From IMG/VR virus record IMGVR_UViG_3300044630_002411, positions 1-29,202 of that record: DNA of 29,202 nt. One strand, 5' to 3'. The DNA is from a virus. Of the stretch, positions 5,908 through 17,435 are shown in pieces (position 1 is the first letter of the stretch; each line of letters begins with the position of its first letter). The position numbers and the translations under genes were made by a program. The notes beneath the pieces are model-generated. The model worked only from the letters and a program-made list of their open reading frames with translations. It did no database searches and was not told the DNA's origin.

Positions 5908-8900
5908 TCAAACTTGTGAATACTGTAATATCTTGCCTTGTATGTCATTGCTTTCACTCATCTTATTAACTAATTCGGTCATAGATTTAGCAACTTCAGC
6001 CATAACGCTTTCATCTGCACCTTCAACAATAGGTGCAGCAGCATTCTGTGCTAAGTCCTTTACCATTTGTTGAGTTGCGGCTTTGAATTCTTCTTGCAAT
6101 TGCTTAATAGCATCTGTTAAAGAAGTTTTATCCATATCCATAATCTCTTTTAATCTATCACCTAAAACATTACCTGCATCAGGGCCAAATTGTTCTGTGC
6201 CAACTTTAGCAGGGCCCATGTCATAATTTGTTGCAATACCCGAATGCAATATCTTTTTCCAAGCTTCAGTGTCAGTGATTGTTTGTGTCTTTTCATCATA
6301 CGCACCCACTTTAACTGGTTTCTTTGCAATACTTGCAATCTTATCAGTAGGTACTACAGTTTCATTTCCATGTAATTCAACTAAGTAACCTGTATCAGGC
6401 CCTTCAAATACTCCGCCTTTTTGCGCCTTAGGTATATCATTTTTCTTCACTCCGGCGACCATTGTTCCGCCGCTAGTAGGTTGTATATTTTGAATATCTT
6501 GAGAGCCAGCAAATGCAGTAACTTTTTGCATAAGTTCATTACCAACATATGCACCTTTCTTTCGAACATCTCCCCCTGCAATCTGACTAGTAGCTAACAA
6601 GTTTGCTTGTTCTTGGGACATATTCTTTTCATCTATGCCCATAGACGTAGCCATTCTAGATTTACCTTTTTCCATATACCAAGCAACTACATCAGCCGCT
6701 ATCTTTGGATCATTAACTAAATCAGGATTCTTAACTAGAGTGTCATCACCAAAAATTGCTTTTGATGCGGCTGCATAGTTTGCTTTACCAGTTAACTGTA
6801 TGTATCCGCGACCTCTATATTTGAAACCATCTCCCGGTTCAAGATTGCCCATGCTTTGACCAATCTTAGTATTTTTACCATACATGAACTCGCCCATCGA
6901 CTCTGGATTCGATTTGATTTCATTTAATTCTTGGTCTGTTTTACCGCTGGCTCTAGAACCAAATATAGATCGTATTCGGTCATTAGATGTTTTGCCATAG
7001 TTTAGATTCTCGTTTACAACTTTACCACCGGACTCTTTCATCACATTACCTAGCACAGCGTTGAGATACTTCTCATCACCCATACCACGCTTCATTAATG
7101 CGGCTTTGACATCACCTAAGTTTTGTTTAACATCTTGTTTGACTGGTGGCGGTGTTCCGCCTCCCATACTTGCCATTGGTGGTGTGGATCCTGTACCACC
7201 AGATGCGCCGGCCGGTGGGGCAGTTGATGGAGCCGGTGTGCTAGTACCTGCTCCTGCGCCTAATTCAGTTTCAGTCAATACTCTTACTCTACCAGAGAAC
7301 TTTGATAGGTCAAATTCTGCACCCTTAAATACATTCTTTAGTTTATCTTGTGCATCAGACAACGCATCAACTTCTTCTTCCTGTTTCTCTATCTTTTCTT
7401 CTTCAAGCTTGTTCAATTTCATTACTGAACCAGACAATTTAGTAAACATCATGTCAGATTCTTTTAAGCTATCTTTCAACTTAGTGATAGCTTCTATTTC
7501 TTTTTCTAGTTCTTCGTTTTGGGCAGCACGGTCATCGTCTAAACCACCAGTCTTCATACCTGTACCCAACGGAGTAATCATTTCTTTACCGTGCAATTCA
7601 ACTGGATAACCTGACTTAGGTCCATCAAATATTCCACCTACTGCGGCTTTAGGTGCACTTGCCTTTGCTTTCTCATTTGCAATCGCTCTATCCATTTGCT
7701 GTAGGATATTTTTGTATGCAAGTTCGCTTTGTGCGCTGCTTGAAACAGGGCCTTTTTTCTCAAATATTTCTCGTCGCTTTTCTAATTCAGCTAGTTTGTT
7801 ACTGACATCTTTGTTTTCACTAGCAGGTTTAGCTGAAGCCATCTGCGGGCCAGTTGTCGGGGCCGAAGATGCCATTGTTGCACCAGGTGTCATTGCACCC
7901 AATGACTTCATTAAATTTGGATCTTCTACTTTGACAATGGATACCTTAACTACATCATTTCCTGCCTTAGTATCTTTAACAAGACTATCATCTTTCTTAA
8001 CTTCTGCTTTCTTAGAAGCTTCATTAACTTTCTTATCAGCATCGGCGGTCATCTTAGCAATACCACCACCGGCAACTTCACCAATAGCTTTACCTGCTTT
8101 ACTACCTAACCAACCACCTAATGCTGCACCAATAATACCGCCTACTGCTGTACCTAATACAGGTACTACAGAACCAATAGCAGCACCTGCGGCTGCACCT
8201 TTTAATGCGCCTGCGGCTCCGCCAATTGCTGTTCCAGTTCCGCCACCTACAGCTTCACCTTTTTCAACACGTGCTTCTTCTTTAGTAATCTTACCTTCTT
8301 TAAGGTCTTTGTCAGCTTTCTTTATACCTTGATATGCATCTACTACGCCTGTACCAACAGCCGCAACAGTACCGATCAATGGTGCTGCTTTAGATAAACC
8401 TGCAAGAGGTCCTGCTAATTTAGAAAGCGCAGTACCGGCTGCTGTTGCGGCTGATGCGGCAGTTCCTGCTCCACCTGCGGCTGTTGCGGCTACTGGTGCT
8501 GCCGTTGCTACTGTTTTTGCACCAGTAATGGCGTTTTCAGCTTTTACTAAACTCTTGAAGCCACCTACTTGTCTTTGTGCCTCTGAAGCAGCCATTCCAC
8601 CTTTACGTAGGTCTTGATATTTCTTTAAATCGTCAGGTGATAAGCCACCAGGCATCTTTGGGCCGCCGCCGGACATTGGGCCTGCTCCACCAGGTAAACC
8701 TTTGTTCATTAAGTCACCGACACCACCTAATGCAGAGCCTACTCCCATCTTACCTAACTTATATGCGGCTATTCCTGCCGCGGCTGCTAAGGCTGCACTA
8801 GCGGCACTGGCTGCAAATGTAGACTTAGTAAATGGATTCAGTGCTCCCAATAAATCGTCTTTTAAACCACGTAATGCACGTTCTAATGATAGTACAGTGT

Positions 8901-10428
8901 TCTCTGTATCTTTTGCACCATCACGCATTGGTTTGCCAGACGCATCTAAAATTTCGCCTTGTTCTTTTCGTCTTTTTATTTGTTCTGCTGTGGCTTTATC
9001 TTCTGCGGCAATTCGATCTCTTCCTGCCTGTGTTTGCATGTCTATTAACTTAGCTGATTCCTTACGCATTTGATTGTCATATCCAAATGCTTCTTGAATT
9101 TGCTTAGATGAATCCCCGTATGCGTATGCACTTTCTCCCAATGTTTTTCGTACATAATCACCTGATTTGACAATTGCAGCTTGATAATCACGTAATGCAC
9201 TTTGACCCTTGTTTAGCGTTGAAGCAACTCCTTCAATGTTTCTACCTGCAGTCAAGAATTGCGCATTGGTTTGTGTGTAAACAGGAGCAGTATCCCTAGA
9301 TATACTTTGTAGTAATGCTGTAGAATTTCTGGCGCTTTCATTAGCCTGAGACCATGCAGCCAATTCATTCTTAGATTTTATAACGCCAGATATCTGATCA
9401 GCCCTGGCCTCAAGTTCTTTTTTCCTGATAGGATCAGTCTCTGCTTCTGCTTTTTTCTCTAACTCTGCCCTTTCCATAGATTTGGCGTGTATATATGCAT
9501 TAAAGTTTTCTTGTACCTGAGCTTGTTCAAGCGCCGATTGACTTTCTTTGACTGACATACCAGTTAATTCTCTGAGCTTAACTAGTTGATCTACATATTC
9601 TAATGATGCTCTTTGTAGTTCTTTGGGACTTTTTGACAAAACCATACCAGCATTAGAGCTTTGTTTAACATACATCGCCTGAGCTTCAGTTAATTGCTCT
9701 TGACTGATACCTAAACGATTGTAAGCTTGTATGTTCTTTTCACCTACCGCAGTCATCTGTCCAAACAGTTTGGTGCCAGCGGCAGAGTTAACACCCAATG
9801 CATTTATATCTTTACCAACGATTTTTACAGAATTGACAAATTTGTCTAAGTTGTCTACTGTATATCCTGAAGCACGACCAAGTTGTCTAACTTGCTCAGT
9901 CGTCATGTTGGTAGTGCCACCCATTTCGCTCAAGCTGTCAAAAGCTTTAAGCATCTTCTGAGTTTGATCAAGTAACATGGGGGCCATAACACTAAAGCCC
10001 TTAATTACACCTCCAATTGTATTACCTAAAACACCAAAGTGTTTTCCAACAGACATTGCAACATCACCAACACCGCCAATAGTTGAACCCCACTTAGTAA
10101 GGTCTGCTGATGTATTTGTTAATGTGCTAGATAAATTGAATAATCCTTTAGTGGCTGCAGCGCCTGCTTCTTTTAGTGATTTAGTTGCGGCTGCTGCCTC
10201 TCGTTCTCCGGCAATTCTAGCTTTTTCAGCTTCAGATAGTTCTCTTAGATTATTACCTAAATTATCAAACGCAGTTCCAGTACGCTTAACATTTTGGTCA
10301 AGCATCCATTGCTCACGCTGTTCTTTAGTCATTGTTTTTGCAAAAACACCGGCTAAGGAGTTAACAGCATCCGTTTGTATGCGTAGCTGTTCTAAGATTT
10401 CTTGACTGGTTTGATTATTTTCATCCAT
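5908..10428 (-). CDS. Tail tape-measure-like protein with internal GH19-type lysin domain
   Basis: About 1506 residues from the ATG at 10428 (a TTG at 10440 is an alternative). Tape measures set tail length and leave the tail during infection. Support: great length, long helical charged N-terminal half (about 1-530), Ala/Gly-rich hydrophobic segments (about 533-566, 631-701 and 722-793, the last with glycine-zipper spacing), and two copies of a motif common in tape measures, GG-[IV]-F-x-GP-x-x-GY-x-VELHG-x-E, near 928-953 and 1335-1360. Between the copies, about residues 1110-1290, is a GH19 chitinase/endolysin-like domain: candidate catalytic Glu near 1132 (NVMKESGGK) and the signature FKYRGRGYIQLTGKANY near 1201-1217. 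It would cut peptidoglycan during DNA entry. T4 gp29 (590 residues) is the functional counterpart, but I cannot show homology. It is divergent from the gp26-like gene. Confidence 0.82.
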   Translation of the reverse strand: MDENNQTSQEILEQLRIQTDAVNSLAGVFAKTMTKEQREQWMLDQNVKRTGTAFDNLGNNLRELSEAEKARIAGEREAAAATKSLKEAGAAATKGLFNLSSTLTNTSADLTKWGSTIGGVGDVAMSVGKHFGVLGNTIGGVIKGFSVMAPMLLDQTQKMLKAFDSLSEMGGTTNMTTEQVRQLGRASGYTVDNLDKFVNSVKIVGKDINALGVNSAAGTKLFGQMTAVGEKNIQAYNRLGISQEQLTEAQAMYVKQSSNAGMVLSKSPKELQRASLEYVDQLVKLRELTGMSVKESQSALEQAQVQENFNAYIHAKSMERAELEKKAEAETDPIRKKELEARADQISGVIKSKNELAAWSQANESARNSTALLQSISRDTAPVYTQTNAQFLTAGRNIEGVASTLNKGQSALRDYQAAIVKSGDYVRKTLGESAYAYGDSSKQIQEAFGYDNQMRKESAKLIDMQTQAGRDRIAAEDKATAEQIKRRKEQGEILDASGKPMRDGAKDTENTVLSLERALRGLKDDLLGALNPFTKSTFAASAASAALAAAAGIAAYKLGKMGVGSALGGVGDLMNKGLPGGAGPMSGGGPKMPGGLSPDDLKKYQDLRKGGMAASEAQRQVGGFKSLVKAENAITGAKTVATAAPVAATAAGGAGTAASAATAAGTALSKLAGPLAGLSKAAPLIGTVAAVGTGVVDAYQGIKKADKDLKEGKITKEEARVEKGEAVGGGTGTAIGGAAGALKGAAAGAAIGSVVPVLGTAVGGIIGAALGGWLGSKAGKAIGEVAGGGIAKMTADADKKVNEASKKAEVKKDDSLVKDTKAGNDVVKVSIVKVEDPNLMKSLGAMTPGATMASSAPTTGPQMASAKPASENKDVSNKLAELEKRREIFEKKGPVSSSAQSELAYKNILQQMDRAIANEKAKASAPKAAVGGIFDGPKSGYPVELHGKEMITPLGTGMKTGGLDDDRAAQNEELEKEIEAITKLKDSLKESDMMFTKLSGSVMKLNKLEEEKIEKQEEEVDALSDAQDKLKNVFKGAEFDLSKFSGRVRVLTETELGAGAGTSTPAPSTAPPAGASGGTGSTPPMASMGGGTPPPVKQDVKQNLGDVKAALMKRGMGDEKYLNAVLGNVMKESGGKVVNENLNYGKTSNDRIRSIFGSRASGKTDQELNEIKSNPESMGEFMYGKNTKIGQSMGNLEPGDGFKYRGRGYIQLTGKANYAAASKAIFGDDTLVKNPDLVNDPKIAADVVAWYMEKGKSRMATSMGIDEKNMSQEQANLLATSQIAGGDVRKKGAYVGNELMQKVTAFAGSQDIQNIQPTSGGTMVAGVKKNDIPKAQKGGVFEGPDTGYLVELHGNETVVPTDKIASIAKKPVKVGAYDEKTQTITDTEAWKKILHSGIATNYDMGPAKVGTEQFGPDAGNVLGDRLKEIMDMDKTSLTDAIKQLQEEFKAATQQMVKDLAQNAAAPIVEGADESVMAEVAKSMTELVNKMSESNDIQGKILQYSQV
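6774..7100 (-). other. GH19-type peptidoglycan hydrolase domain core
   Basis: Part of the tape-measure-like gene. The codons for the candidate catalytic Glu (KESGG context) lie near 7033-7035, and the block YRGRGYIQLTG lies near 6780-6825, about 70 residues later. This is the typical spacing between the first catalytic Glu and the [FY]-x-GRG-x-[IL]-QLTG motif of GH19 chitinases and phage endolysins. Confidence 0.75.
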
Positions 10429-10439
10429 GTATTTTACCA

Positions 10440-10447
10440 AATAAATA
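10440..10447 (+). promoter_or_regulatory. Possible late promoter for the gp26-like gene
   Basis: Plus strand AATAAATA, 52 nt upstream of the ATG at 10500. It is a weaker match than the GATAAATA/ACTAAATA sites but is the only candidate in the divergent gap. Confidence 0.35.
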
Positions 10448-10499: not shown

Positions 10500-11330
10500 A
10501 TGGCATTAGATAACAACCCGCTGAAACAGTATTTCCGTCGACCAGCAGTATATGTAAAATTACCTAGCGGTGGTAAATATTATCCGCAGGGGGTAATAGA
10601 CATGCCCACTAACGGCGAAATCCCAATCTTCCCTATGACAGCCATAGATGAGATTACTACAAAAACCCCTGACGCATTGTACAACGGTACTGCTATGGCA
10701 GAATTGATGAAAAGCTGTGTACCAAACATCAAAGATCCGTGGGCCATCAATAGCATGGACTTAGACGCAATTTTGATTGGCATTCGTGCAGCAGGTGGTG
10801 GAAACGACATGGAAATTGAATCCGAATGTCCTGCATGTAAAGATATTGGTAAGTATGGAATAAACCTTATAAATATGCTAAGTCAGATGCGACCAGGCAA
10901 TTATGAGACTGACCTAGAAATAAATGATTTGAAAATCAAATTTAGACCATTGTCATATAAAGAAATGAACGAGGCCAGCATTGGGCAGATCGAAATTCAA
11001 CGTGTGTTTATCATGTTAGAAAACGAAACCGATGAAGAAATTCGCAAAACACGTGGTCAAGAAGCACTAAAAAGAATAACACAGTTAACCATCAAGTTGT
11101 TGACAGGTGCTATTGAATACATTGATACTCCGTCAGCCCGTGTTGATAATAAAGAATTTATTTTAGATTTCTTGAATAATTGTGATAAAAACATGTATGT
11201 TACATTGCGTGATTACAATGCAGACTTAAAATCTCAAACAGAAATTAAACCATTAAAAATCAAGTGTGTTCACTGTTCCAATGAGTATGAACAACCGTTC
11301 ACATTGAATACCAGCGATTTTTTCGTCTAA
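10500..11330 (+). CDS. 26: Baseplate hub assembly protein, gp26/gp51-type (T4_baseplate family)
   Basis: 276 residues in the unshifted form. Family signatures are the N-terminal YFRRPAVYVKLPSGGKYYP, then MTAIDEITTKTPDALYNGTA, then LDAILIGIRAAGGG, as in T4_baseplate-family proteins, which help assemble the baseplate hub. Two CxxC pairs (Cys110/Cys113 in ECPACKD and Cys256/Cys259 in KCVHCSN) suggest a zinc-binding unit. The ATG is preceded by AAAAGGAACAAAA, a fair ribosome binding site. The end of the gene reads GAT TTT TTC GTC TAA, and a coding-like frame in -1 continues for 76 codons beyond it. Together they look like a tail assembly chaperone pair made by frameshifting, next to the divergent tape measure gene. 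The gene number is uncertain between 26 and 51. Confidence 0.85.
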   Translation: MALDNNPLKQYFRRPAVYVKLPSGGKYYPQGVIDMPTNGEIPIFPMTAIDEITTKTPDALYNGTAMAELMKSCVPNIKDPWAINSMDLDAILIGIRAAGGGNDMEIESECPACKDIGKYGINLINMLSQMRPGNYETDLEINDLKIKFRPLSYKEMNEASIGQIEIQRVFIMLENETDEEIRKTRGQEALKRITQLTIKLLTGAIEYIDTPSARVDNKEFILDFLNNCDKNMYVTLRDYNADLKSQTEIKPLKIKCVHCSNEYEQPFTLNTSDFFV

Positions 11331-11366
11331 CGCTTCTCCGCCTTGACCCAGAAGGCATACAGAAGC
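11318..11366 (+). promoter_or_regulatory. Programmed -1 ribosomal frameshift signal
   Basis: The slippery heptamer T TTT TTC (11318-11324) is in the zero frame of the gp26-like gene, directly before codon GTC and stop TAA (11328-11330). After a 7-nt spacer comes a stem-loop: outer stem GCTTCT (11332-11337) / AGAAGC (11361-11366) enclosing inner stem GCCTT (11340-11344) / AAGGC (11352-11356). A second hairpin, TTGACGGC (11370-11377) / GCCGTCAA (11387-11394), follows. Heptamer, spacer length and downstream structure all fit a -1 frameshift element of the kind used by many phages in tail assembly chaperone genes. Confidence 0.78.
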
Positions 11367-11554
11367 TTCTTGACGGCTATGAAAATGCCGTCAATGATAT
11401 AAAGAAAAGTGCCATGTCCATGGCATGGTATATGAGGGGTGGTGCGACATATGAAGATGTTCTGAATATGTCCACTTCCGAACGTGAGCAATTAAAAGAA
11501 CTCATAGACAGTAACTTAGAAGTCACTAAGAAATCAGGACTCCCGTTCTTCTAA
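11324..11554 (+). CDS. -1 frame extension of the gp26-like gene (frameshift product C-terminus)
   Basis: After the shift, translation continues RLTLLRLDPEGIQKLLDGYE and so on for 76 residues to TAA at 11552-11554, giving a fused protein of about 351 residues. The segment MAWYMRGGATYEDVLNMSTS and the end KKSGLPFF look like a small conserved protein that follows gp26-type genes in T4-like phages. The frame is open back to a TGA at 11288-11290 but has no ATG, GTG or TTG before the coding-looking part. The first in-frame ATG (11414) would give only 46 residues, would cut off the helix LDPEGIQKLLDGYENAVNDI, and has only a weak purine stretch upstream. This favours synthesis as a frameshift fusion, though the short product is possible. 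Confidence 0.75.
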   Translation, partial: RLTLLRLDPEGIQKLLDGYENAVNDIKKSAMSMAWYMRGGATYEDVLNMSTSEREQLKELIDSNLEVTKKSGLPFF

Positions 11555-11641
11555 TTTGGTTTTCTTTTTATTCTTTCTTTAGCCGTAACTATTCATTTAG
11601 TCAATTATTGGCTTATTCTTTTTATCTTGTTTCTCTTTTAA

Positions 11642-11685
11642 AGATGTCCTTCGGACATCTAAGAACTTCGCTACGCTCGTTCTTA
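11642..11685. repeat. Pair of adjacent palindromic hairpins
   Basis: Hairpin A: AGATGTCC (11642-11649), loop TTC, GGACATCT (11653-11660), a perfect 8-bp stem with a UUCG-like turn. Hairpin B: TAAGAAC (11660-11666), 12-nt loop, GTTCTTA (11679-11685). They abut, sharing one base, like paired REP-type elements. They may stabilise or end transcripts; on the minus strand hairpin A is followed by only TTT. Confidence 0.6.
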
Positions 11686-11754
11686 TGCTGTTTAACTTTA
11701 ATTACTGTTTATTCTATCATGGATAACATAACATTAGTACTTGCACTTGAAGCC

Positions 11755-11780
11755 ATGGTAGTGCTAAAAAGCACCACCAT
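11755..11780. repeat. Hairpin in intergenic region
   Basis: ATGGTAGTGCT (11755-11765), loop AAAA, AGCACCACCAT (11770-11780): 11-bp stem with one A-C mismatch. There is no T-run on either side, so it is not a standard terminator. Confidence 0.55.
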
Positions 11781-11937
11781 TGGTAAAGGGTTTACTTGCC
11801 CGTCATCCATTGTTATCTTTTCCCCGTAGTGTCAGCTATTTCTGCTACATCTACGCTACCGGTTGCTCTGTAAAGTTTATGGGACTGTAGTTAGGTCTAT
11901 CAATGATCTTTCAATTGACGCCTTCGCAACGCACATT

Positions 11938-11965
11938 CTATAGCTTAAAGATAAAGTTGCTATAG
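11938..11965. repeat. Hairpin in intergenic region
   Basis: Inverted repeat CTATAGC (11938-11944) / GCTATAG (11959-11965), 14-nt loop. Function unknown. Confidence 0.45.
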
Positions 11966-12118
11966 ACTTGTTGAAGGTTCGCTTTGTCGATTGCCTTCTC
12001 GGTATATCCAGAAAAATTAATTTCTGCTACTCCAGAATCTAACGGCACAGCACTATCTGTACAATCTCAAGGAGAGTCGAGGATCCCCGACCAAACAAAT
12101 TTAAAGACTAAAGTGTTT

Positions 12119-12700
12119 TTATTTTAATGTAGAGAGTATATCTTTGGTTTTAAGATTTTCGATTGATGACTTGGTGTCTGTTGTATTTGCGCCTGATGCG
12201 TATGTTTTGAATAAATCTTTGTTGTACTTCCAAAAGTGATCAAATTCAATGAGAATCCAATCATTGTACTTTTCAGAAGTATAATATAGAAATTGATCTG
12301 TGATCCATGTTAGTTTACTCTGAACGCAAACAAACTTACCCTTGCGGTTAAATTTCATAAACAATATGTTTACATCGTTTGATTCAGCAACTGCCATGAG
12401 TTGATCTAGCCAACTATTTAGTTGCTTACACTCTCCTGTAAGTACTAAGTGAAAGGGAAAGTCAGCGTAACTCTTTGCCTCGGCGTTAAATTGATTCCAT
12501 CCATCTGGTGGAATGATATCACCTTTAAAAGATTTTGCTTGATTCTCGCTTAGATATTCTTTTCTATACGAATTGGTGCCTCCTATGTAAGCACCACTGT
12601 GAGGTGCTCGAACAAAAGACTCATTATAGAGTTTGCTCATAAAGGTTGCAACTTCTCTCTCAAAAGAGCTGCCCTTATTTTTACTTTTTGATCCACCCAT
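12119..12700 (-). CDS. PD-(D/E)XK nuclease, Hjc-like (possible Holliday junction resolvase)
   Basis: 193 residues. The N-terminal part has the layout of Hjc-type resolvases: a basic start, GSSFEREVATFM (Glu14), then FVRAPHSGAY, then Asp61 in FKGDIIPPD and Glu74-Ala-Lys76 in FNAEAKSY, that is D-x(n)-E-x-K with an upstream Glu. These residues would bind the metal and cut DNA branches. The C-terminal ~100 residues are Trp/Phe/Lys-rich and unassigned. T4 resolves branched DNA with endonuclease VII (gp49), a different fold, so this may be a functional substitute. ATG 12700 has an AGAGG site upstream and overlaps the end of the homing endonuclease gene by 20 nt, indicating coupled expression in the gp47-gp46 recombination operon. 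Another PD-(D/E)XK activity, such as nicking or degradation, is also possible. Confidence 0.62.
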   Translation of the reverse strand: MGGSKSKNKGSSFEREVATFMSKLYNESFVRAPHSGAYIGGTNSYRKEYLSENQAKSFKGDIIPPDGWNQFNAEAKSYADFPFHLVLTGECKQLNSWLDQLMAVAESNDVNILFMKFNRKGKFVCVQSKLTWITDQFLYYTSEKYNDWILIEFDHFWKYNKDLFKTYASGANTTDTKSSIENLKTKDILSTLK

Positions 12701-13316
12701 CTAATGCCTCTTTGTATAAATTTATATCTTTGTGTATTCTACTTATCAACTCATGGTGACAGTTGAATTTTTTAGCTAACTTTTTGTATGTTCCGTGCTC
12801 GTATGTGATGGTTTCAAGGGCTTGAATAATTTGAACCTTTAATTCTGGGTTTGTTCTGCGAATACTTGCTAATAAACAATTTCGTTTTTGATCTTCGGAT
12901 CTTCTTTGTCCTGCATTTTTATTAACTCGTTTTTGTATATGTTCTAGAGTTTGTTTAGCTCCAGTGCGTTGTTGTGACCAAAGGCGCCGAGTCTTATCTG
13001 ATGGAACCCAGCCTACATTACTAGAGTCACCGCCCTCTGAATAGTTAGTTAGAATACCGTCACCTTTGATGATTCTTCCATATTTACTGACTAGTTCTTT
13101 TTCGTGGTTGAATGCATCGATTTCTTCGGCATACTCAGCTATTATTTCTAACTTTGGTTCTAACCCGGCCACTTTCAACTCAGATAAGAATTTTCGTTTC
13201 AACGAATTTCCGGTTTGGTTGACATTGACCGTCGCAGATAATCTGTACTTTTTACCCTTACCGACATAAAAAGGTTTTCCGTTTCTAGGATCGTACAATA
13301 TATAAACATACCACAT
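12681..13316 (-). CDS. GIY-YIG homing endonuclease (Seg-like), copy 1
   Basis: 211 residues from the ATG at 13316, chosen over the upstream TTG at 13331 because of AAAGGATT 7 nt before it. The GIY-YIG nuclease domain is at the N-terminus: VYI (residues 4-6), FYVGKG (16-21), Arg25, catalytic Glu72 (HEKELVSKYGR) and Asn91 (LTNYSEGG). Residues about 106-150 (SDKTRRLWSQQRTGAKQTLE) look like a NUMOD3-type DNA-binding module. The C-terminal KKLAKKFNCHHELISRIHKD looks like a helix-turn-helix. It is a free-standing selfish endonuclease that cuts phage genomes lacking it and spreads by repair. It lies between gp46 (59 bp upstream) and the nuclease gene it overlaps by 20 nt. A late promoter and an RBS-masking structure precede it. 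Confidence 0.85.
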   Translation of the reverse strand: MWYVYILYDPRNGKPFYVGKGKKYRLSATVNVNQTGNSLKRKFLSELKVAGLEPKLEIIAEYAEEIDAFNHEKELVSKYGRIIKGDGILTNYSEGGDSSNVGWVPSDKTRRLWSQQRTGAKQTLEHIQKRVNKNAGQRRSEDQKRNCLLASIRRTNPELKVQIIQALETITYEHGTYKKLAKKFNCHHELISRIHKDINLYKEALDGWIKK

Positions 13317-13319
13317 AAC

Positions 13320-13377
13320 TAATCCTTTCAAGTCTTACATTGTATTTATCATTTATGTGTAAATCTTACAAAGATTA
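13320..13377 (-). promoter_or_regulatory. Possible RBS-sequestering hairpin with internal late promoter (copy 1 endonuclease)
   Basis: On read-through RNA, TAATCTTT (plus 13370-13377) can pair with AAAGGATTA (plus 13320-13328), eight base pairs with one bulged G, covering the ribosome binding site of the endonuclease. The octamer GATAAATA lies in the loop at 13343-13350. RNA started there would lack the upstream arm. The loop is about 41 nt, so the structure is less certain than the one at 17443-17478. Confidence 0.4.
13343..13350 (-). promoter_or_regulatory. Late-promoter-like octamer before copy 1 endonuclease
   Basis: Minus strand GATAAATA (context AATGATAAATACAATG), 26 nt upstream of the ATG at 13316. 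Same core and left flank as the site before the second endonuclease (AATGATAAATAAG). Confidence 0.6.
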
Positions 13378-15667: not shown

Positions 15668-16677
15668 AGAGTATTGTAAATGTCCAATAGAATTTTTTTA
15701 TCAAAGCTGTTTGATTCAATCGCATTGATTTGGTCAATGATAATTTGGTCTACCGATTCAAATCGTAGTCCATCACCATTCTGACCTTGCTCAACAGCTT
15801 CGCCCTTCATTGGAATTAATGTCATTTCTCTTAATTTATGTTCTGGAATTAATGTTTCTCTGATAAAGTTAGCTTCTTCATAGCTAATATCAATGTCAAG
15901 ATGTACTCTAACATGACTGTCAATCAAAAGATAGCCTTCTGGGTTTTCTAAAATATCTGACAATTTGTGTACACGATAGATTGGTTGTCTTGGCCAACTA
16001 TGAAACACTGGTTCAGTTCCCCATTCTAAAATCATCATACCACGTGCGTCATCACCTGCATCAGCATAGTTGTGCGGGAAAGCATTACCAATATACCAAA
16101 TGTTCTTTCGTGATTGTCGTTTATGAAAGTGACCACTGAATACTTTCTCAAAGCCAGTCATATAGTCTTCATTAATCTCACCGTGATCTGGCATCTCAAC
16201 CATAGCATTCATATAGAAGCGAGGTAATTCTAAATGACCAAACATATATTTGCCACCTAGTTTTTTTAATTTCTTGTAATCATCTTGTACAAGCCACGGC
16301 GCTATGACTACATCTCCTTGTTGGAAGAAGTCGTTAATGATTTTAACGTTCGGTAAATGTTTAGCCCACTCAACACTATGAATGTCCCTGCGATCACGAT
16401 AATAAAGATCGTGGTTGCCTGGGATAAAATATACAGTATCAAAGCTACCATTTAATTTCTCCAATGCTTGTAAACCAAATTGTAGTGTTTGAATGTTGAT
16501 GCTGGCTCTGTGATGATTATAATCACCCAGAAAGAAACATGTCTCACATCCTTCTTTCTTTGCTTGGGTAACAAACCAATCTACAAAATTGGCACAGTCT
16601 TGATTGTGTTGCAGGCTGTTTGACTTAAGGCCAAAATGCACGTCGGTGAAAACTGCTGCCTTCTTAAATAAATTCAT
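15664..16677 (-). CDS. 47: Recombination endonuclease subunit gp47 (Mre11/SbcD-like nuclease)
   Basis: 337 residues, close to T4 gp47 (339). It is the metallophosphoesterase nuclease partner of gp46. The phosphoesterase motifs are all present: FTDVHFG (Asp12, His14), FLGDYNHH (Asp52), PGNHD (86-90), FGHLE (146-150) and SGHFHKR (181-187). Start ATG 16677 overlaps the stop of the upstream homing endonuclease gene as ATGA and has AAGGACA just before it. Expression therefore depends partly on translation through the endonuclease gene or on this internal ribosome binding site. Confidence 0.96.
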   Translation of the reverse strand: MNLFKKAAVFTDVHFGLKSNSLQHNQDCANFVDWFVTQAKKEGCETCFFLGDYNHHRASINIQTLQFGLQALEKLNGSFDTVYFIPGNHDLYYRDRRDIHSVEWAKHLPNVKIINDFFQQGDVVIAPWLVQDDYKKLKKLGGKYMFGHLELPRFYMNAMVEMPDHGEINEDYMTGFEKVFSGHFHKRQSRKNIWYIGNAFPHNYADAGDDARGMMILEWGTEPVFHSWPRQPIYRVHKLSDILENPEGYLLIDSHVRVHLDIDISYEEANFIRETLIPEHKLREMTLIPMKGEAVEQGQNGDGLRFESVDQIIIDQINAIESNSFDKKILLDIYNTL

Positions 16678-17435
16678 TCATTGTCCTTAAGTTTGTATCC
16701 ATTATAAAATTCCCCGTTTTTTGATTTTTCTCGAATAGTACTCATCCACTGACCTGTTTGTCTTTGGAACTCACTGATACTAGTATACACTTCTACTTCT
16801 CCGGAGTCACGCAATAAGGTAACCTTTTTGGATGTTTTTTCAGCACCTTTTAATCCGTTCTGTACTCTATATTTTTTTGCGAGATCTGGATTTTCTTTTT
16901 GCCATTGTTTTATTCCAGCACTATGTTTTTCTTTTGCTCCGGCTACTGAATCATAATATCCTTTTAAGGTAGTCGATCTGTTCTTACGGGCATCATCTGT
17001 GTGACAGTGCCTAATCATTTCTTGTCGTTCTTCAACAGTAGTACCCTCCCATTTTTTCTTGTTGAACAACCTCCATTTTTCACCTAATGCTTCTCTAATA
17101 ATTACTACTTCTTCATCAGTGAACATAGTTAAATCATTGTTCAATCCATCACCACCGGGTGTGCTATTAAGCCCATTCTTATAAGAATTATATTGACTAA
17201 TATATTTTATTTCTGCTAATGCGAGTTGAGATATAGAATCAAACCCAGCGTCAATTACTTCATATACACAATTATCAGGTCCATAATGATTAATAGCTTT
17301 GTGTAATTTTCCTTTAGGATTAGTGATTGATTCCTTGCAGTGTGTTTTCCAACGAGATTTTTTATACTCAGGTTTTGTATCTAACCCAATGTATACTTCT
17401 CCTAAAGGAACAACAGTGATTTTGTAAATGAACAT
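16674..17435 (-). CDS. GIY-YIG homing endonuclease (Seg-like), copy 2
   Basis: 253 residues. The N-terminal GIY-YIG domain shows IYK (3-5), GEVYIGLDT (12-20), Arg28 and His32 in SRWKTHCK, Glu75 (LALAEIKYISQYNSY) and Asn90 in GLNSTPGGDG. The central part is basic and helical. Residues about 205-247 (SGEVEVYTSISEFQRQTGQW) resemble a NUMOD1-type helix-turn-helix used for target recognition. It is only distantly like the other endonuclease in the window, so it was probably acquired separately. It sits between gp55 and gp47 and overlaps the gp47 start by 4 nt. A hairpin holding a late promoter covers its leader. Confidence 0.87.
   Translation of the reverse strand: MFIYKITVVPLGEVYIGLDTKPEYKKSRWKTHCKESITNPKGKLHKAINHYGPDNCVYEVIDAGFDSISQLALAEIKYISQYNSYKNGLNSTPGGDGLNNDLTMFTDEEVVIIREALGEKWRLFNKKKWEGTTVEERQEMIRHCHTDDARKNRSTTLKGYYDSVAGAKEKHSAGIKQWQKENPDLAKKYRVQNGLKGAEKTSKKVTLLRDSGEVEVYTSISEFQRQTGQWMSTIREKSKNGEFYNGYKLKDNE

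Follow-up and report, generated by a model that had tools for sequence, protein, structure and literature searches.

The stretch of viral DNA analysed here (the window) is 29,202 nucleotides long and carries a T4-type gene set, with portal gp20, prohead protease, gp46/gp47-like, late sigma factor and baseplate genes. Within it, a gp26-family gene is divergent from a gene for a large tail protein and runs at its 3' end into a second open frame, shifted by -1. The features of this region are the following:

5908-10440, minus strand: large tail protein of 1510 aa, with a tape-measure-like region and a chitinase/endolysin-like domain
10500-11330, plus strand: gp26-family gene (TAC-N, short form, 276 aa; PF12322, phrog_150), stop codon TAA at 11328-11330
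11318-11324, plus strand: slippery heptamer T TTT TTC, from direct reading, in the X XXY YYZ register
11325-11331, plus strand: 7-nt spacer between heptamer and stem, containing the 0-frame stop
11332-11366, plus strand: putative stimulatory two-part stem-loop (lower stem 11332-11337/11361-11366; inner stem 11340-11344/11352-11356)
11368-11397, plus strand: second hairpin, lineage-specific (8-bp core 11370-11377/11387-11394)
11324-11554, plus strand: -1 extension, the predicted C-terminal domain of a long form (76 codons, RLTLLRLDPEG...KKSGLPFF; stop codon TAA at 11552-11554)

The product of 10500-11330 matches the Pfam family T4_baseplate (PF12322) with an E-value of 2.9e-13 and 50.5 bits (curated cut-off 24.5), and its PHROG match is phrog_150, the T4 gp26/gp51 family (E 5.8e-15). 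Structure prediction gave a good model of this protein (pLDDT 87). Comparison of the model with the solved structures of the PDB using Foldseek and VIA-align returned helical-hairpin matches alone, none of them significant, and a search by sequence found no solved structure; since the fold has no match among solved structures, a structural tie to lambda gpG was not obtained. Against a viral structure library, the model matched chiefly gp26-family and uncharacterised phage proteins. The protein also contains two CxxC pairs (residues 110-113 and a C-terminal CVHC), echoed in T4 by the CPEC of gp26 and the CPKC of gp51, and this pairing suggests a zinc site in the gp26-family protein.

The product of the divergent gene at 5908-10440 matches phrog_794 (E 9e-8), phrog_167 (E 1e-5), phrog_181 (E 4e-29) and PF00182 (E 2e-6). 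It resembles tape measure families weakly, and the corresponding neighbours in isolates are unnamed virion proteins; we consider it the likely partner of the gp26-family protein. Two further regions of the window deserve mention. Beyond the -1 extension, about 560 bases (11555-12118) have no assigned gene and contain perfect inverted repeats (11642-11660 and 11660-11685), and an Rfam search of this interval gave no match. The gp46/gp47 (SbcC/SbcD-like) genes lie between two homing-endonuclease-like genes (12681-13331 and 16674-17435, minus strand).

The 3' end of the gp26-family gene reads GAT TTT TTC GTC TAA. The original prediction had placed a canonical heptamer in frame here, 3 nt ahead of the stop, and direct reading confirms it. 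An IMG/VR search yielded 72 relatives, 35-95% identical, and both the heptamer and a -1 tail are present in all 70 of those with a readable 3' end (48 distinct sequences, 49 with the window), TTTTTTC occupying the slip site in 49 of 49. In the remainder of these genes, 13,467 codons contain 58 in-frame heptamers of the X_XXY_YYZ type and not one TTTTTTC; these background counts exclude chance as the origin of the heptamer at the gene end. The 0-frame stop lies several codons beyond the heptamer in the relatives L060-L064 and L069, with the heptamer still in register, so that the heptamer signal and the stop signal are separable.

In the -1 frame the reading continues as ...SDFF-RLTLLRLDPEG..., which gives a fusion of 351 aa. 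The expectation that these 76 codons are protein coding was borne out: dN/dS ranges from 0.01 to 0.23 in eleven pairs, and the differences between moderately divergent pairs fall on codon positions 1, 2 and 3 as 584:202:1234. The other two frames contain 5-10 stops over the tail in the five sequences examined. Tail length is identical in 44 distinct sequences, and the complete tails of the IMG/VR relatives extend 71-75 codons beyond the stop (one tail leaves its contig). By these measures of sequence change, the -1 tail evolves as a protein. It is predicted to be helical (pLDDT 84), and when searched alone against Pfam and PHROG it gave no significant match.

Folding of the region downstream of the heptamer, which had been proposed as a check, gave a minimum free energy of -27 kcal/mol and a z-score of -5.4, and none of 200 shuffled sequences folded equally well. 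Among 42 distinct sequences, the lower stem (GCUUCU/AGAAGC) is paired in 99.6% of alignment cells and the inner stem in 68%. Two pairs of the lower stem show compensatory changes, G-C to A-U and C-G to U-A, the latter in four sequences, where U replaces C in one arm and A replaces G in the other. The covariation score of this stem exceeds those of all 500 shuffles and all slid controls, although such counts are inflated by relatedness. The choice of stem sequence is in part synonymous: leucine is encoded by CTT at the stem in 42 of 43 cases, against 14% of leucine codons in these genes, and lysine by AAG in 43 of 43, against a background of 35%. Other stems stand at about the same distance from the heptamer in the distant relatives L065, L069, Rhizobium IC12 and P-HM1, and an Rfam search at the slip site gave no match. 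The predicted 7-nt spacer and two-part stem-loop are thus upheld by folding and covariation; the 8-bp hairpin postulated behind them is present, but it is well formed in the window and its closest relatives only.

The same arrangement extends well beyond these relatives. An in-frame TTTTTTC followed by a -1 tail was found in 87 of 87 further loci (61 distinct), comprising 80 of cyanophage type, three of jumbo phages and four of Aeh1/phiAS5 type. Fourteen isolates carry the heptamer, namely Atu_ph07, Phosso, 121Q, Paride, Munch, Sf-FS3, IC12, phiAS5, XaC1, Kaldavass, GAP32, BF, Vibrio F86 and P-HM1, and variants of it are seen in RL38J1 (TTTTTTG) and XacN1 (TTTTTTT). The original prediction had suggested a comparison across gp26-type genes, and in this comparison heptamer, stem and -1 frame are kept over large divergence. 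Four isolates retain a -1 tail although the canonical heptamer is missing: the two Ackermannviridae IME250 and D5lw, Vibrio K474 and Pseudomonas Cygsa01. The gene 3' ends concerned are our loci L190 and L192 (Ackermannviridae), L189 (K474) and L084 (Cygsa01), and the Ackermannviridae read GAG ATT TTC ATT TAA. As IME250 and D5lw have no standard start codon nearby, a non-canonical shift site is possible in both.

T4 itself is not known to use a shift, as the original prediction had noted, and its gp26 (208 aa) and gp51 (249 aa) are indeed separate paralogues, both of which match PF12322 and phrog_150. Gp51 extends about 45 residues past the part it has in common with gp26, and in hhalign profile comparisons its C-terminus matches the cyanophage -1 tail (probability 96.5, E 1e-9) and the C-terminal part of the window-type tail (probability 80, E 1.4e-5, 34 columns). 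The window-type and cyanophage tails are tied together through T4 gp51, since their direct comparison is weak (probability 5.6). T4, KARL-1, phage 31, phiP4-3 and the RB43 candidate lack a slippery site at the 3' end of gp26. A 36-protein tree groups the gp26 and gp51 of six Straboviridae in a single clade (support 100/98) and places every shift-bearing protein outside it; as some branches are long and the tree has no fixed root, derivation by duplication is the simplest reading of this tree, short of proof. T4 thus shares with the window the protein family and an extension related to the -1 tail, but it appears to make the short (gp26) and long (gp51) forms from two duplicated genes, whereas the window would make them from one gene and a shift. 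PMC3004832 counts both T4 proteins among the hub assembly chaperones and describes gp51 as required yet absent from the particle, which agrees with a chaperone role.

Taken together, the conserved heptamer, the protein-like evolution of the tail and the paired, covarying stem argue for programmed -1 frameshifting to a 351-residue product, which is very probably, and by far, the best explanation of the locus. We are confident that this is the tail assembly chaperone gene of a T4-type myovirus, giving a short form and a -1-shifted long form of 351 residues.

Alternatively, the tail could be a small gene in its own right, on which ribosomes reinitiate once they have reached the gp26 stop, with no shift at all. 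An ATG lies within six codons of the slip site in 12 of 49 distinct sequences. In some relatives an ATGA overlaps the 0-frame stop, and among cyanophages an ATG is conserved two codons into the tail. Annotators have also kept the two reading frames apart: in cyanophages and Vibrio F86, genes named 'gp51' or 'baseplate hub assembly catalyst' fall inside the -1 frame that extends the gp26 gene before them, as in the following loci:

L080, 3699-3890: separately annotated 'gp51' gene within the -1 extension
L188, 2337-2504: separately annotated 'gp51' gene within the -1 extension
L191, 2172-2333: separately annotated 'gp51' gene within the -1 extension

The cyanophage pairs (for example P-HM1 and Sf-FS3) resemble the window in having a gp26-family gene, an in-frame TTTTTTC and a -1 tail, and differ from it in their shorter tail, in the ATG that often stands two codons past the stop and in their annotation as two genes. 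In the window, however, neither ATG nor GTG nor TTG occurs in the -1 frame before the ATG at 11414 (the first 30 codons of the extension), and most relatives likewise have no start for many codons past the heptamer (32 in the window); the claim that a start codon is missing holds for them and fails for the 12 sequences with an ATG near the slip site. Reinitiation, moreover, gives no role to the invariant heptamer and the covarying stem, and in T4 gp51 these two parts are genuinely fused. We therefore regard it as an improbable source of the tail in general; where an ATG stands near the slip site, as in those 12 sequences and the cyanophages, it may add a free tail domain.

Still less probable is that the long form arises from transcriptional slippage on the T6 run and not from ribosomal frameshifting. 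A six-T run is present in nearly all relatives, but six T is short for slippage by RNA polymerase, and a heptamer held strictly in codon register, with a conserved stem 7 nt behind it, suits a ribosomal mechanism; furthermore, -1-frame tails persist in relatives without the run. A single gene split by sequencing error or a recent frameshift mutation, in favour of which there is the frame break itself and nothing more, is rejected, as the same break, stop and heptamer recur in about 150 independent contigs and isolates.

Under programmed -1 frameshifting, most ribosomes would terminate at 11328 and release the 276-residue short form. A minority would be paused by the stem-loop 7 nt downstream and slip one base back on U UUU UUC, with tRNA-Phe re-pairing on UUU UUU, and their reading in the -1 frame would yield the 351-residue long form with its additional helical domain. 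If the parallel with lambda gpG/gpGT holds, short copies would be many and long ones few, and together they could coat the tape measure protein and bring in subunits of the tube or hub. What the DNA shows is a signal in the right register, a stem and a coding tail, all conserved together; that ribosomes shift here in vivo, how often they do so and how the chaperone works is inferred.

The -1 frameshifted tail assembly chaperones of lambda (G/GT) and P2 (E/E') were described by Xu, Hendrix and Duda (2004) and are reviewed in PMC5009743. As in the window, one gene of the tail module gives a short form and a -1-extended long form, with the slip site near the 3' end of the first reading frame. They differ in having no sequence relation or demonstrated fold relation to the gp26 family, and the window gene is divergent from its large tail neighbour. 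The tail chaperones of Vandenendeviridae and Andersonviridae (PMC12846349) are also from myoviruses and have a poly-T -1 site; these are other phage families and their motif is GTTTTT, against T TTT TTC in the window.

The original prediction had further suggested that T4-type phages have their tail assembly chaperone in the gp26 family. Our comparisons support this as the most likely role, and it had already been published: the work of Vladimirov, Gautam and Davidson (2022; PMID 34826709), which PMC10885494 and PMC12846349 cite, identified the tail chaperones of T4-like phages and their separate genes. In PMC12846349 it is also the source given for poly-T slippery sites in the TAC-N genes of T4-like phages and, by the account given in the PRFect paper (PMC10885494), some T4-like phages have a short gene and a long fusion gene in place of a shift. 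The main idea is not new and priority lies elsewhere; what is firm here is the shift signal, the covarying stem and the wide survey.

Atkins et al. (2016) noted that the G-T shift is conserved in long-tailed phages, T4 excepted (PMC5009743). Our survey indicates that T4's wider family is no exception, the shift being kept in most T4-type phages sampled and duplicated genes being found in T4's own group. It is probable that the usual way of making T4-type chaperones is a -1 shift at U UUU UUC followed by a stem, in cyanophages, jumbo phages, Rhizobium, Vibrio and Aeromonas Aeh1-like phages, that the relatives of T4 swapped recoding for duplication, and that the cyanophage 'gp51' genes are -1 extensions. 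Annotations that treat the -1 tail as a gene of its own, or omit it, would be corrected accordingly. Recoding and duplication would then constitute a natural experiment, in which gp26 and gp51 gain a clear and testable role.
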